Assembly: GCA_947306225.1 (NCBI GenBank) | Contig: CAMZFW010000002.1 | Location: 1 to 47,301, forward strand | Direction of reading: 5' to 3' | Length of the DNA stretch: 47,301 nt | From: an uncultured Bacteroidales bacterium | GTDB taxonomy: Bacteria > Bacteroidota > Bacteroidia > Bacteroidales > P3 | Part shown: one piece after another, positions 39,952 through 45,002 of the stretch | Numbering within the stretch: position 1 is the stretch's first letter | Layout: the number at the start of each line of letters is the position of its first letter | Notes under the pieces: model-generated | Database searches by the model: none | What the model saw: only the letters and a program-made list of their open reading frames with translations | Told to the model about the DNA's origin: nothing | Translations under genes and position numbers: made by a program

Positions 39952-40975
39952 TTATTAATTGGTATGTGGGAAACAACGACTGAAGCGTAGGACGACAAAC
40001 TGTACAACAGGTAGAGTGCCCCTCCACGTGGTCTACAAAGTCTTTCAACTCGTGATAAAACCCATGCTCTACCCATGTGGAGGCTTGTAGGGTAGGCGAA
40101 AAACTGTCGTGACGGCACAGGTATTCCACAGACACGTTACGATGCCTTATTTTCTCCATCGGAATGCCTGCAAAGGAGCCGCCCATCGGTTGAAAAGAGA
40201 GTGTATCGATGCCCGAGAGTGTGTAGACTCCTGCAGAAGTATGCACAATCAACTCTTCAATGGGTGCCATCCACGAATAGCCAGTAGAGAGCTCTACTGT
40301 CCCAACCAGATTGCCGTGGGAAAGCATCATAACCAAAGTTTGACACGATGCCTGCCGAACAGCCAGCACCTCTGCAGAGCCAAAAATGTGCAATACCAAG
40401 TCTATTGGATGAATAAAAAGCTCGGTGAGAGCATCTCCTTCGGGGTAACGACCCACACAATACCTCAAGGAATAGTTACAAACAGTACTGCCTTTAAGAC
40501 ATGCTTTAAGCCGACGTATGGCAGGTGCATACCGTTTCTGTAGACCCACCTGCACATAGGAGCCAGTGCTTTCTTGTAGAGCAACTAGCGACTCAAGCTG
40601 AGAGAGCGTTTGGCAAGGCGGTTTCTCAACAAATAGAGCCTTACCTTTCTGTAACACAGAGGCAGCTATGCTGTAATGAGATGAAGGAGTAGCTGAGACA
40701 AAGACTGCAGACACTTCTGGGTCGGATAGCACCGTGTCTAACGATGTCGTCACAATGACATGCTTAAAGGCAGGATTGGAACTAATGAGCTTGGCTTTAT
40801 GCGATGACTGTATGCAGATATATTTCAGTGGCACGTGCAAAAGGTCTAAAACTGGGTATAGGTTTGCCATACTATGGTTGCCCATGCCCACAAAGGCATA
40901 TTGGTGAGCGCAAGGGTGCGTAAGCAGAGACTTAGCTCGCAAGCGGCGGACTCGATAGATAAAACTAGACATCAT
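39926..40975 (-). CDS. Gfo/Idh/MocA-like oxidoreductase
   Basis: The 349-residue protein has a Rossmann start after about 25 extra residues (YAFVGMGNHSMANLYPVLD). AVFVSATPSSHYSIAASVLQKGKALFVEKPP follows in two blocks, ending in the EKP motif typical of the family. The C-terminal half fits the alpha/beta substrate domain. It overlaps the radical SAM gene by four bases (ATGA type), so the two are translationally coupled and probably act on one substrate. The glycine motif is GMGNHS rather than GxGxxG, so cofactor binding may be altered. Substrate is unknown. Confidence 0.8.
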   Translation of the reverse strand: MMSSFIYRVRRLRAKSLLTHPCAHQYAFVGMGNHSMANLYPVLDLLHVPLKYICIQSSHKAKLISSNPAFKHVIVTTSLDTVLSDPEVSAVFVSATPSSHYSIAASVLQKGKALFVEKPPCQTLSQLESLVALQESTGSYVQVGLQKRYAPAIRRLKACLKGSTVCNYSLRYCVGRYPEGDALTELFIHPIDLVLHIFGSAEVLAVRQASCQTLVMMLSHGNLVGTVELSTGYSWMAPIEELIVHTSAGVYTLSGIDTLSFQPMGGSFAGIPMEKIRHRNVSVEYLCRHDSFSPTLQASTWVEHGFYHELKDFVDHVEGHSTCCTVCRPTLQSLFPTYQLINTCLHILK

Positions 40976-42033
40976 GATTGAATAGTTTTGAAATATTGAC
41001 GATAGGTAGTGCCACGGTCACCGCACCACTGATAAGAACCATACAACAATTCCACCATCCTTTTGGGAAGAAAACGTTCGAGTGTACGGAGCAATATGAT
41101 GTCGTACTTGCGATGGAAGTTTATCCAACAGCCGTTGCAAGTTTTGCCGTAATGACGTTGAAGACTACAAGTGGTGAGACTGTTCCAAATGTCGTCGAAC
41201 GACTGATTGTGAATGTTGCCAAGTATACAATCAAGATTCTGACATAGGGGAACATTGCCGTTGGCATGAACCACAGCCTGATTTCTGATACTGAGACAAG
41301 GTAGAGAAAGTCCTCCATTGCGCCATTGGTCGTAGAGCGCCACATAGTCGTAGTTTTCGCTTGTTTGGTGAATGGATTGGGGAATGTGTGTGGTAAAATC
41401 TTTTGCTGCAAGAAGGTCGGTAGTAGTATCGAGAAAGGCCATGGTTCCATAGATGCCTATACGCACATCAATCCGATATTGCTGGGCTAGATGAATAACA
41501 TACTCCATGTCTTCGAATCTGTTCCAAGGAGAGAGGCAGAACATGAGCGACAAAGGGACTTCTCCAGCCAAGGTCTCTATTACTTTTATCACTTTCAAGT
41601 AGCCATCGCAGCCTCGCATGTAACGATAGGTTTGGCGATTGCCGTCTAAAGATAGGTAAAGGTGCCTCGGCTTATATAGTCTTGTACTCTCAATCAGCAT
41701 CCCGGGGGCAAGGCAATTAGAAAGCAGCGTGTAATTGGGATGATGCAGCCTAAACCATTCTAGAATTTGGTTCGCCTGCGGGTGAAGGATAAACTCTCCA
41801 CCTTCAAGACCTACCGTCGTATAGGATTTAACACAACTGCTTTGCATAACACGCACAATGTCGTCGAAAGAAAGGTGTTCGTGGGGCTTTTTCCAAATGG
41901 AACAATGGCGACAGCGCGACTGGCAAGCTGTCGTTGCATAAATCATCAGCTGGCTCAGCTGTTTGTGGTGCGGACGCAAGGTGTTGTTGACATAGAGGAG
42001 TCCGCTTGTCAAATAATCGGTTGCTTTATACAT
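40972..42033 (-). CDS. Radical SAM protein with SPASM-type C-terminus
   Basis: The 353-residue protein carries the radical SAM cluster motif Cys37-x3-Cys41-x2-Cys44 (CQSRCRHC), a GLEGGE segment (75-80) for SAM binding, and a C-terminal set of cysteines (246, 264, 269, 289, 299, 302) arranged like a SPASM/twitch auxiliary-cluster domain with GNVPLCQNLDCILGNI. SPASM enzymes modify peptides, proteins or sugars. No precursor peptide gene was found alongside. It starts 111 bases after the sigma/barrel gene on the same strand and is coupled to the Gfo-like gene. Confidence 0.87.
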   Translation of the reverse strand: MYKATDYLTSGLLYVNNTLRPHHKQLSQLMIYATTACQSRCRHCSIWKKPHEHLSFDDIVRVMQSSCVKSYTTVGLEGGEFILHPQANQILEWFRLHHPNYTLLSNCLAPGMLIESTRLYKPRHLYLSLDGNRQTYRYMRGCDGYLKVIKVIETLAGEVPLSLMFCLSPWNRFEDMEYVIHLAQQYRIDVRIGIYGTMAFLDTTTDLLAAKDFTTHIPQSIHQTSENYDYVALYDQWRNGGLSLPCLSIRNQAVVHANGNVPLCQNLDCILGNIHNQSFDDIWNSLTTCSLQRHYGKTCNGCWINFHRKYDIILLRTLERFLPKRMVELLYGSYQWCGDRGTTYRQYFKTIQS

Positions 42034-42144
42034 ATCGGTCTATAAATAGATTATGAAAGTTGGGTTGTTAAGGCATCATTACCTTTTAAACTTTCTCACC
42101 TATAAAGAGACCGAAACCGTACAAAAGACTGCACGAAAAAAAAA

Positions 42145-43791
42145 CTAAAATGTAAAGCGCATACCCATATGTGAGGTTATGGTGAATGGATGGGCTATGG
42201 CATAAGTGGACAACGACTGCCAGCTTGTCTCAATGGATGAAAGTGGAAGTATCGTATAACTCATGCCACCTTCGACGAAGAGGCTGATATGCTCCGTTTG
42301 ACGGTAATGTACGCCCGCCTTGATTGTGGCCATGAGACTTGGTTGCCCTTTATGGGAAGAGTATTCACCGAGCGGTATTGCTGACCCTCCAGTAGTGGTA
42401 TTATTTGTCTGCCCTCCAAGAATGAAACTGGTACTGCTGCGAATGGACAAAGGCAATTGAATCGAAAGGTCGGCTGAAAGATGACAACCCAAACGGGACG
42501 ACTGGTGCAGGCTAAACGACATGCCAATTGGAATGTCGAAGAAGGTGACACGCTGCCACTCGTCAATCCTATCTATACCAACACCTGTTTGGAAATAAGA
42601 ACGATATTCGCCATGTCCCATACCAACATGGACCGAGACCATGCTATCTACTGCGTAATGAAGCATCAATGCCTCGATGGTGGGTGGCTCATGATATTCG
42701 GTACGGAATATTTCTCCATTATTGTCTATCTCATTGCTTTGGGCTATGCGTATTAGTGCCGAAGCCACTTCGTCAGAGAAGAGCATACTATTATCCAACA
42801 CATACCGTTTGCAGTCGCGCCAATTGACTATGGGAACGCTTGTTACGGGTTCACCTGTAGTGGATGCTGAAGGCAACAACAATGGGTGAGGATGCCGGGC
42901 AACACACATTTGGGAAAGGGGGTGCGACATCACTACCGTCACCGACCACTTGCTTGCTGTGTGTACTGCCAGAAGCTGTGGGTCAGCCAAGATAGACTCA
43001 ACCGCCACATCTGCGTTTCTCTCTTCTTTATCCATCCCTATTTCTTCCTCAAAAAGGATTGGGAACGATATCGAGTCGTTTTGTAACACCATTGTGGGAG
43101 ATTTTTCTAGTCTTGTCATTATTGGAACGAAAGGCTTGGAAACGCCATTTGGCGACAATTTTGTTTCTATGCTTGGGCATCCGCTTTGCCGCCGCGCTGT
43201 CAAGGAGGTTGCGATAGTATTTGAATCATCCTCCAATCCGAAAGGCATTGCCAACAGCAAAACACACAACAATGGTCCTAAAATACGCTGCAACATGGCT
43301 CGAGCGTGATAGAGCTGAGAGGAGGAAGAATGTGGCTCGATATTCAGCGTCTGGGCTATCTCCTTGTGAGACATGTCCTCTATTACTGCCATGGTAAACA
43401 CTTTTCGGTAGCCTGTGGGCAGTTGGTTAATAGCCGCCTGTAACTCTTCTTGTGTGAGAGGGGAGTCATGTGCCTCACAGGGTACATCAAAACCCTCGAT
43501 ATGAGATATAGGGATAGTTTTTCCTTTTGTTTGCTGCTTTAATTGTCGTATTGCTAGTCTTGCCGATATAGCAGCTAGCCAACTACCGAACTTCTCCGGG
43601 TCGTTGAGTTGGTCCAACCTGTTAAAAGCAATAAGAAAAGCATCATCCACAAGTTCTTCGGACAATTCTTTGTCACGAGTTATATGACAACAAATGGCAA
43701 ATGACCGCTGTTTATAGCGGTTATAAAGCATATTTAGAGACTGTCGGTCACCAATCCTAGCTTGCTCTACCAGTTGTTCCATGTCCGTCAT
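42145..43791 (-). CDS. ECF sigma factor fused to a membrane segment and outer-membrane-barrel-like domain
   Basis: One uninterrupted 548-residue ORF. Residues 1-170 are an ECF sigma-70 factor: region 2 (about 20-87, ELVDDAFLIAFNRLDQL) and region 4 with helix-turn-helix (about 115-170, LPTGYRKVFTMAVIEDMSHK then EIAQTLNI). Residues 170-185 (ILGPLLCVLLLAMPFG) form a hydrophobic segment flanked by Arg before and acidic residues after, fitting an inner-membrane crossing. About 190-350 is low-complexity, presumably periplasmic. About 360-548 alternates like a beta-barrel and ends in GMRFTF, with AGVHYRQTEHISLFVEGGMSY resembling the barrel domain that Bacteroidales usually carry on a separate anti-sigma/porin protein encoded next to an ECF gene. 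No anti-sigma domain is visible. Confidence 0.8.
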   Translation of the reverse strand: MTDMEQLVEQARIGDRQSLNMLYNRYKQRSFAICCHITRDKELSEELVDDAFLIAFNRLDQLNDPEKFGSWLAAISARLAIRQLKQQTKGKTIPISHIEGFDVPCEAHDSPLTQEELQAAINQLPTGYRKVFTMAVIEDMSHKEIAQTLNIEPHSSSSQLYHARAMLQRILGPLLCVLLLAMPFGLEDDSNTIATSLTARRQSGCPSIETKLSPNGVSKPFVPIMTRLEKSPTMVLQNDSISFPILFEEEIGMDKEERNADVAVESILADPQLLAVHTASKWSVTVVMSHPLSQMCVARHPHPLLLPSASTTGEPVTSVPIVNWRDCKRYVLDNSMLFSDEVASALIRIAQSNEIDNNGEIFRTEYHEPPTIEALMLHYAVDSMVSVHVGMGHGEYRSYFQTGVGIDRIDEWQRVTFFDIPIGMSFSLHQSSRLGCHLSADLSIQLPLSIRSSTSFILGGQTNNTTTGGSAIPLGEYSSHKGQPSLMATIKAGVHYRQTEHISLFVEGGMSYTILPLSSIETSWQSLSTYAIAHPFTITSHMGMRFTF

Positions 43792-43841
43792 GTCCTCTTA
43801 GAGACATTTCTTCTAAGAAAGACTGCATGGAGGTGAAAAAA

Positions 43842-45002
43842 TTATTCCTTCGTGCGGATATTATTAATGTTCAAAATCTTCACGTCGGTAGGCCACATCT
43901 CATTCATCAACACACCGCGCGGCATACCATTGTTGGAGGTGGTACTGAAGGTTTTCCCATCGGCATCTGTCGAGATATAGGTGTCATAATACAGCCACTT
44001 CTTTCGACAGTTGCTGATGAACACCAGACAGTTGAACACCGTCTCGTCATCATCGCTTAGACGCATGGGACAGAAATAGCCCACCACCTGGTTCTTTGGC
44101 ACTGGTTCGCGGAAGAGGCTGTCGCGGTCACAGACCAACGTGTCACCAATTTTCTCTTTCGACACCACCACAAACTGGCTATTATTCCGTTTGGGCTTCT
44201 TCAACTCCAGCACAAACTTCTCGCCTAATTCAAGAAATAACCCTGTGACAGTCTCCGACTCTTCCTCCTCGTCAGAGAAGAGGAGTTTGTCCCATGCCCC
44301 TGCAATACGGTCGATGTTGAAATACAGCGTATCCACGCCATACTCATTAGTGTCGATTACAAACATATCGTAGTCGCTTCCGTTGAAACTCACCAGCACC
44401 TGTTCCTTCTCATGGAAGCCATACATGCTCATCATCATATACTCATGCGAAGGGTTCACCACATGCATTGCCAGTTCGGGCGTGGTGCCGTTGCCAGTGC
44501 TGGCTATGGTGTAGAAAAGCATCTGAAATTGCAACTGCACCTTCTGCAGTTCTAACGTGTCTCCGCCGAAATATTTGCATGCAATATTCTGCCCGACAAA
44601 CTTATAGTAGTATGCCATTGGCTCGGCAGGGTTCTGCGCAATCACTGTGTTGGCGAGTTTAATAATATTACGTGAGTCCGCAATAGTGGGTGTCTCATCC
44701 TTACTCATAATAGCTTGGATTTCTTCAAACTCATCATAACTCGGATAGGGAGAATACCCATCCAGAAACGCCTGCCCATAATAGAACGTCTGCATGTCTG
44801 CAATGTCAAGGGCTGTGTCCACTTCGGCAAAACGCTTGATTAGTTTGGGGTAGTAACGGTCACTTTGCTTGTCGGTACAATCCTTCTTGATTTGTTCGTA
44901 ATTGGGGGTTGTATACCCAACGATAGCCAACCCTTCAGCATCCTGCGCCTGAGGCAAACCCATCAGGAGCAGGGCTGTAATAAGCATTGTCAGCTTCTTC
45001 AT
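43842..45002 (-). CDS. Secreted protein with DUF4919-like N-terminus
   Basis: The 386-residue protein has a signal peptide (MKKLTMLITALLLMGLPQAQ). The N-terminal half has PNYEQIKKDCTDKQSDRYYPKLIKRF and ADMQTFYYGQAFLDGYSPY, which resemble DUF4919 proteins of Bacteroidales. The second half (about 200-386) is beta-rich and unrecognised. It sits between the PspC gene (7-base gap) and the sigma/barrel gene (50-base gap) in one orientation, so the three may form one envelope-related operon. Function is unknown. Confidence 0.75.
   Translation of the reverse strand: MKKLTMLITALLLMGLPQAQDAEGLAIVGYTTPNYEQIKKDCTDKQSDRYYPKLIKRFAEVDTALDIADMQTFYYGQAFLDGYSPYPSYDEFEEIQAIMSKDETPTIADSRNIIKLANTVIAQNPAEPMAYYYKFVGQNIACKYFGGDTLELQKVQLQFQMLFYTIASTGNGTTPELAMHVVNPSHEYMMMSMYGFHEKEQVLVSFNGSDYDMFVIDTNEYGVDTLYFNIDRIAGAWDKLLFSDEEEESETVTGLFLELGEKFVLELKKPKRNNSQFVVVSKEKIGDTLVCDRDSLFREPVPKNQVVGYFCPMRLSDDDETVFNCLVFISNCRKKWLYYDTYISTDADGKTFSTTSNNGMPRGVLMNEMWPTDVKILNINNIRTKE

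Follow-up and report, generated by a model that had tools for sequence, protein, structure and literature searches.

A sigma factor, a membrane helix and a barrel in one reading frame

The window, that is, the whole stretch of 47,301 nucleotides analysed here, stems from a gut-type Bacteroidales bacterium. On its minus strand it carries a gene whose product joins a sigma factor, a transmembrane (TM) segment, a tether and a beta-barrel, followed by two enzyme genes (Table 1). The frame runs unbroken from ATG to stop over 548 codons, and no open frame is present on the plus strand at this locus. With regions 2 and 4 as the only sigma regions and with matches to PF04542 (Sigma70_r2, 3.8e-9), PF08281 (Sigma70_r4_2, 1.4e-14) and TIGR02937, all above the cut-offs, the N-terminal part corresponds to the definition of an ECF (group 4) sigma factor. 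The nearest Bacteroidota subfamily match, TIGR02985 (Sig70_bacteroi1), stays below its cut-off with 78.8 of 126.4 bits. In alignments of the fusions, the motif IEPHSSSSQL in region 4.2 is near-invariant.

Table 1 Features at the fusion locus (positions refer to the window)
Feature	Position	Strand	Evidence
DUF4919 gene, secreted protein	43842..45002	-	
TGCAGTC-N15-GTCTCT copy 1, 8 nt before the fusion ATG	43800..43827	-	Upstream alignment, genome scan
Sigma-TM-tether-barrel fusion, 548 aa, stop included	42145..43791	-	ORF, Pfam, orthologues, AlphaFold2
Sigma region 2, residues 22-88	43528..43728	-	Pfam PF04542 above cut-off
Sigma region 4, residues 115-167	43291..43449	-	Pfam PF08281 above cut-off; alignments
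TM segment, residues 170-186	43234..43284	-	Hydropathy; single continuous helix in models
Disordered periplasmic tether (predicted), fast-evolving, residues 187-280	42952..43233	-	pLDDT <50; 52% identity and dN/dS 0.28 against the nearest orthologue
8-stranded beta-barrel domain, residues 281-548	42148..42951	-	Pfam orthologues, AlphaFold2, Foldseek, dN/dS 0.19
Long loop between barrel strands 1 and 2, residues 292-361, candidate sensor	42709..42918	-	Alignments, AlphaFold2
TGCAGTC-N15-GTCTCT copy 2, 72 nt before the radical-SAM gene	42106..42133	-	Upstream alignment, genome scan
Radical SAM/SPASM protein, 353 aa, CxxxCxxC intact (CQSRCRHC)	40972..42033	-	PF04055, PF13186 above cut-off; adjacency
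Gfo/Idh/MocA-type NAD-binding oxidoreductase, 349 aa	39926..40975	-	PF01408 1.3e-15; adjacency

The TM segment is the strongest hydrophobic segment of the protein by hydropathy and is preceded by a basic helix (YHARAMLQR), as expected for an N-in orientation. Pfam gives no barrel above the cut-off in the window's fusion itself; at an E-value limit of 0.1, PF13505 (OMP_b-brl) was found in five and PF13568 in two of the 15 aligned orthologues, with best values of 2.8e-6 and 6.1e-8, respectively. AlphaFold2 was run with two alignments (15 and 20 sequences), and both models agree. The sigma part is built from helices at residues 4-89 and 114-149, and a further helix (153-181/184) runs without a break from region 4.2 into the membrane segment. 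Disorder extends over about 100 residues, from around 178 to 277, and eight long strands with pLDDT values of mostly 85-93 lie within residues 282-547. The low pTM of the whole model (0.47) is expected because of the flexible tether. Foldseek matched the sigma part to SigW/RpoE and the barrel part to OmpA/NspA. A first-pass annotation, made from the letters alone and giving no strand, had described an uninterrupted frame with sigma regions 2 and 4, one hydrophobic segment with a positive inner flank and a C-terminal barrel of the outer-membrane type ending in Phe; all three features hold, the last with the C terminus ...GMRFTF, and the barrel expected after residue 350 is present in the models, with strands up to residue 547. 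The long loop between the first two strands carries a conserved NW...IAxxN...NxG pattern and may be the sensor segment.

Conservation of the fusion and absence of the anti-sigma domain

At least 20 Bacteroidales genomes, which fall into five family codes, have intact fusions, at identities of 18-76%. The window's family contributes 15 of them, ranging from 76% down to about 19% identity, and one more that is cut by a contig end; in the order sample, families f60, f111, f5 and f26 have intact fusions, one of them on a single 3.29-Mb contig, and a scan of GTDB contigs returned a full-length relative from an uncultured Bacteroidales bacterium. Relatives are thus not all split into two genes, and the fusion that the first-pass annotation had proposed to trace in homologues is conserved. 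In the class and phylum samples, where the best three candidates per genome were scored, no fusion outside Bacteroidales was found at E <= 1e-58. Comparison of the window with its nearest orthologue gives dN/dS values of 0.13 (sigma part), 0.15 (TM segment), 0.28 (tether) and 0.19 (barrel), which point to purifying selection on the whole fusion frame. An assembly or frameshift error could have been suspected from the fragmented state of the source genome (199 contigs, 85% complete), yet its probability is practically nil: intact orthologues in so many genomes, including the one on a single long contig, and purifying selection on either side of the junction rule it out.

In a tree, the fused sigma domains group into a single clade with support of 93/92, which 94% of the bootstrap trees recover. 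The genes compared in this tree had been collected with profiles built from fusions, and because this sampling favours the fused class, a single origin of the fusion is likely rather than proven. Repeated independent fusions are unsupported by the same, biased, tree.

Split ECF systems, in which an ECF gene is followed by a gene for an anti-sigma-TM-barrel protein, occur across Bacteroidales, and the C-terminal part of this second gene is homologous to the portion of the fusion that follows residue 171. Upstream of their TM segment, these second genes encode a domain of about 45 residues with the pattern FExxIxxKLxDxExxVPxxxWxxIExxLP. The Dma/Das systems of Bacteroides have an anti-sigma domain, a TM segment, a disordered tether and a barrel, encoded beside an ECF21 sigma gene (PMC13088901), and the domain of about 45 residues takes the position of the anti-sigma domain of the Dma proteins. 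It is absent from 21 of 21 fusions, in which no more than a few residues separate region 4.2 from the start of the TM segment. A hidden anti-sigma domain was found neither between region 4.2 and the TM segment nor N-terminal to region 2. As the domain of the split genes is missing from all fusions, the earlier statement that the sigma factor takes over the position of the anti-sigma part is correct; that the anti-sigma domain is absent throughout the fusion clade is a new observation.

How a sigma factor lacking this domain stays off is not explained by the sequence. The sigma factor must be kept off and the fusion has no anti-sigma-like domain, so one could assume that a separate anti-sigma protein encoded elsewhere is still needed and that the barrel part only tunes the response. 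In the examined loci, the neighbours of the fusion are enzymes, secreted proteins or unrelated genes; an anti-sigma protein was not seen beside the fusion, with few neighbours scanned against the family library, and we regard this arrangement as very unlikely.

Two fusions, in G488 and G248, have a frameshift between sigma domain and barrel. In G248 (L094:6421-7913), the interruption lies directly 3' of the TM segment and ahead of the barrel, at seven consecutive A, and leaves a sigma-TM frame of 228 aa and a barrel frame of 269 aa; it could be a sequencing error, decay or slippage. In G488 (contig C32, L047), the frameshift is in the tether/barrel region and separates 312 aa from 175 aa; the near relative G550 is intact.

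Such frameshifts, together with a tether that is disordered and evolves fast, as a dispensable linker would, are also what may be expected of a polyprotein that is processed in every case: the TM segment would be a signal anchor that is always cut early, and a sigma factor and a free barrel would arise in a fixed ratio and not signal to each other. We consider this improbable. The whole clade keeps the fused order instead of splitting it up, there are just two frameshifted cases, which could be sequencing errors, and the Dma relatives retain the plan of TM segment, tether and barrel as a signalling device (PMC13088901).

An enzyme gene pair and a shared promoter-like element

The gene pair after the fusion, encoding a radical SAM/SPASM protein and a Gfo/Idh/MocA-type oxidoreductase, overlaps by 4 nt. 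It follows the fusion in the same order in 12 genomes and also in a thirteenth (G116), whose contig ends within the barrel. These 13 genomes belong to three family codes, i.e. genera g1 and g9 of the window's family and two other families, and the linkage is a new observation. In G542, fusion and pair are separated by one more small gene. Few genomes encode the radical-SAM protein (16 of 190 in the family and 12 of 393 in the order), and its co-occurrence with the fusion gives Fisher p values of 7.7e-11 for the family and 9e-4 for the remainder of the order sample, both inflated by the relatedness of the genomes. The pair is also found in genomes that have no fusion. Searches for the function of the radical-SAM protein gave generic family matches and no solved relative. 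In G157 (L115:6992-7969) and G168 (L116:6626-7603), N-terminally truncated radical-SAM copies occur that are devoid of the CxxxCxxC motif and still paired with Gfo. On the other side of the fusion, the DUF4919 gene keeps its position only in the closest relative, G124.

A methyltransferase gene takes the place of the pair after the fusion in G021, G157 and G163, and in G162 it follows the pair. Neither cassette is present at seven fusions (G160, G167, G158, G408, G550, G562 and G248). The loci L079 and L080 (from G021 and G018) are very similar to each other and differ in their cargo, a methyltransferase gene in the former and radical SAM plus Gfo in the latter, each preceded by its own TGCAGTC motif. 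From these comparisons, the site downstream of the fusion looks like a position at which cassettes are swapped.

Alignment of the upstream regions of five orthologues yielded a bipartite element, TGCAGTC-N15-GTCTCT, which precedes both the fusion and the radical-SAM gene (Table 1) and occurs almost nowhere else in fusion genomes. This is a new finding as well; the first-pass annotation had missed both the element and the conserved gene pair, which is a likely target of the switch. TGCAGTC is found upstream of 15 of 22 fusion genes, including some from other family codes, whose second element takes a form such as ATCTATA or GGACTATA. The exact heptamer is missing within 200 nt upstream of the remaining seven, one of which has TGTAGTC. 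Of the following genes, 11 of the 15 rows tested have the heptamer upstream. None of 19 split ECF genes, 16 ECF genes of other kinds or 10 radical-SAM/Gfo pairs without fusion is preceded by it, at a background of 0.018 per 200 nt. Genome-wide, the full pattern of genus g1 gives exactly two matches in the fusion locus and none to two elsewhere in all eight of the genus's fusion genomes that were tested, and zero matches in all eight congeners that lack the fusion. The two matches per locus arise partly by construction, because the pattern was drawn from the same loci; its scarcity elsewhere and its absence from the congeners do not. Two other matches in the window's genome, on contigs C7 and C12, were considered as further sites and taken as chance, one lying inside a long coding frame and the other across the start of a HemW-like gene.

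The simplest reading is that the element is the cognate ECF promoter, with an invariant -35 element (TGCAGTC) and a -10 element that drifts by clade, and that TGCAGTC-N15-GTCTCT would be read by the sigma domain of the fusion itself. With copy 1 only 8 nt ahead of the ATG, the transcript of the fusion would have almost no leader. The distribution of the motif suggests that in the window's genus one protein switches on only itself and the neighbouring pair of enzyme genes. Genus g170 (f5; L091-L093, L169-L183) has four to five near-identical, dispersed TGCAGTCTTTT...ACTATA sites per genome, mostly in front of genes for short signal-peptide/secreted or lipoprotein-like proteins, which suggests a larger regulon there. 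Downstream of one of the g170 sites lies a gene for a T9SS-tailed C10 peptidase.

Proposed mechanism and relation to known systems

Most sigma factors that respond to the envelope depend on an anti-sigma factor that is a separate protein. For the fusion we favour, with somewhat better than even confidence, a switch of the Dma3 type (see below) in which a single envelope-spanning polypeptide is cleaved to release a sigma factor that transcribes its own gene and the enzyme operon. According to this model, the N-terminal ECF domain would lie on the cytoplasmic face of the inner membrane, the membrane helix would start at the end of region 4.2, the disordered tether would cross the periplasm and the barrel would sit in the outer membrane. 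At rest, the sigma domain would be kept at the membrane, and RNA polymerase is probably hampered in using it by the helix attached to it. A change sensed by the barrel, or failure of the barrel to assemble, would expose the tether to periplasmic proteases, and intramembrane cleavage of the RseP type would then free the sigma domain. The free sigma factor would recognise TGCAGTC-N15-GTCTCT and transcribe its own gene, giving positive feedback, as well as the adjacent radical SAM/SPASM-Gfo/Idh operon. The sequence analysis itself supplies the order of domains, the lack of the anti-sigma domain, the conservation, the gene linkage and the motif with its restriction to fusion genomes; topology, inhibition at rest, cleavage, signal and enzyme product are predictions of the model, as is the pairing of this sigma factor with this motif. 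The window's genome has candidate genes for proteases of the RseP and Prc types, and with IutY as a precedent (PMC8999054), release by proteolysis, which the first-pass annotation had also proposed, is plausible.

The main rival to cleavage is that the tethered sigma factor recruits RNA polymerase while still anchored, the barrel altering its conformation or clustering. CadC and ToxR are thought to act in this way, as membrane-bound transcription factors that do without cleavage. A predicted regulon of two promoters, one of them its own, would allow this, as both could be reached from the membrane, and since region 4.2 and the TM segment form one continuous helix, movement of the latter could act directly on region 4. 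ECF sigma factors, however, have to bind core RNA polymerase and as a rule dissociate from it once transcription has been initiated, and the dispersed sites in g170 suggest a larger regulon in that genus. Known fused sigma factors such as IutY, moreover, require proteolysis (PMC8999054), and we regard activity in the anchored state as rather unlikely.

In the fusion, one polypeptide across both membranes would be sensor, tether and transcription factor, a minimal circuit from surface to gene. The absence of an anti-sigma domain raises the question whether a sigma factor can be silenced by tethering to the membrane alone. With the predicted promoter and the two enzyme genes beside it, there is a small, concrete regulon through which the function of such proteins can be tested directly. 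In a wider reading, to which we give about even chances, the fusions are a clade of anti-sigma-free switches from outer membrane to promoter with a near-private regulon, composed of their own gene and one adjacent, swappable cassette (at the same site, either a methyltransferase or the radical SAM/SPASM and Gfo/Idh pair) that would make or modify a molecule linked to the cue of the barrel.

The architecture as such is known and hardly studied; in the literature found it is mentioned briefly and in passing, and no target is given. Dma3 of Bacteroides thetaiotaomicron (BT_2778-2779) has a sigma domain at its N terminus and no adjacent ECF21 gene; it is induced in dma1 and dma2 mutants, is dispensable for their hypervesiculation, and its role is given as unknown (PMC13088901). 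BT2778 is listed as iron-responsive, by about 2.3-fold (PMC10434189). The report on Dma3 gives no regulon, promoter or operon partner and makes no statement on an anti-sigma domain (PMC13088901). The window's fusion fits the description of Dma3 with its N-terminal sigma domain and no ECF21 gene next to it, and the order of sigma domain, TM segment, tether and barrel is the same as far as described. A tblastn search for Dma3 in plasmids gave sigma-domain matches only, none of which covered 80% of the query. Since Dma3 has been described with the same layout (PMC13088901), the one-protein route without anti-sigma that the first-pass annotation had put forward is not unprecedented; its other half, that the fusion carries no anti-sigma domain, stands.

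With Dma1/Das1 and Dma2/Das2, the fusion shares the TM segment, the disordered tether, the C-terminal barrel and a Bacteroidota ECF sigma factor (PMC13088901); they have separate sigma and anti-sigma genes, whereas in the fusion the sigma factor is covalently attached and the anti-sigma domain is absent. Measured against a strict definition of Dma proteins, the fusion has the single TM helix, the disordered tether and the C-terminal beta-barrel. It lacks the N-terminal anti-sigma domain before the TM helix and an adjacent cognate ECF21 gene, its neighbours being the DUF4919 and radical-SAM genes, and because the anti-sigma domain was looked for and not found, the fusion is classed as a variant of the Dma kind. 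The split pairs found here match Dma/Das by their layout, and their C-terminal part is homologous to that of the fusion; none of the 19 has TGCAGTC upstream.

Other systems share part of this plan. The sigma/anti-sigma pair M0N98_03761/03760 of Phocaeicola vulgatus responds to attack on the envelope by BcpT (PMC9308784). Like the fusion, this pair and the EcfO pair of B. fragilis combine an ECF sigma factor with an outer-membrane barrel, there on the anti-sigma factor; unlike the fusion, they are encoded by two genes and have an anti-sigma domain. IutY (ECF243) of Pseudomonas putida, a fused sigma factor that is activated by Prc and RseP (PMC8999054), and ECF48/52/53 of Actinobacteria are likewise fused to a membrane-bound regulatory extension, but in contrast to the fusion these extensions have an anti-sigma domain and no outer-membrane barrel has been described for them (PMC8999054).

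The window's family also has stand-alone ECF genes (L002, L030-L039) that are followed by a gene for a protein of about 290 aa with one TM segment. The C-terminal domain of this partner presumably resembles gliding/CHU_C-type ends (WDGT...YVYVI), and we take it to represent a different anti-sigma-like class.
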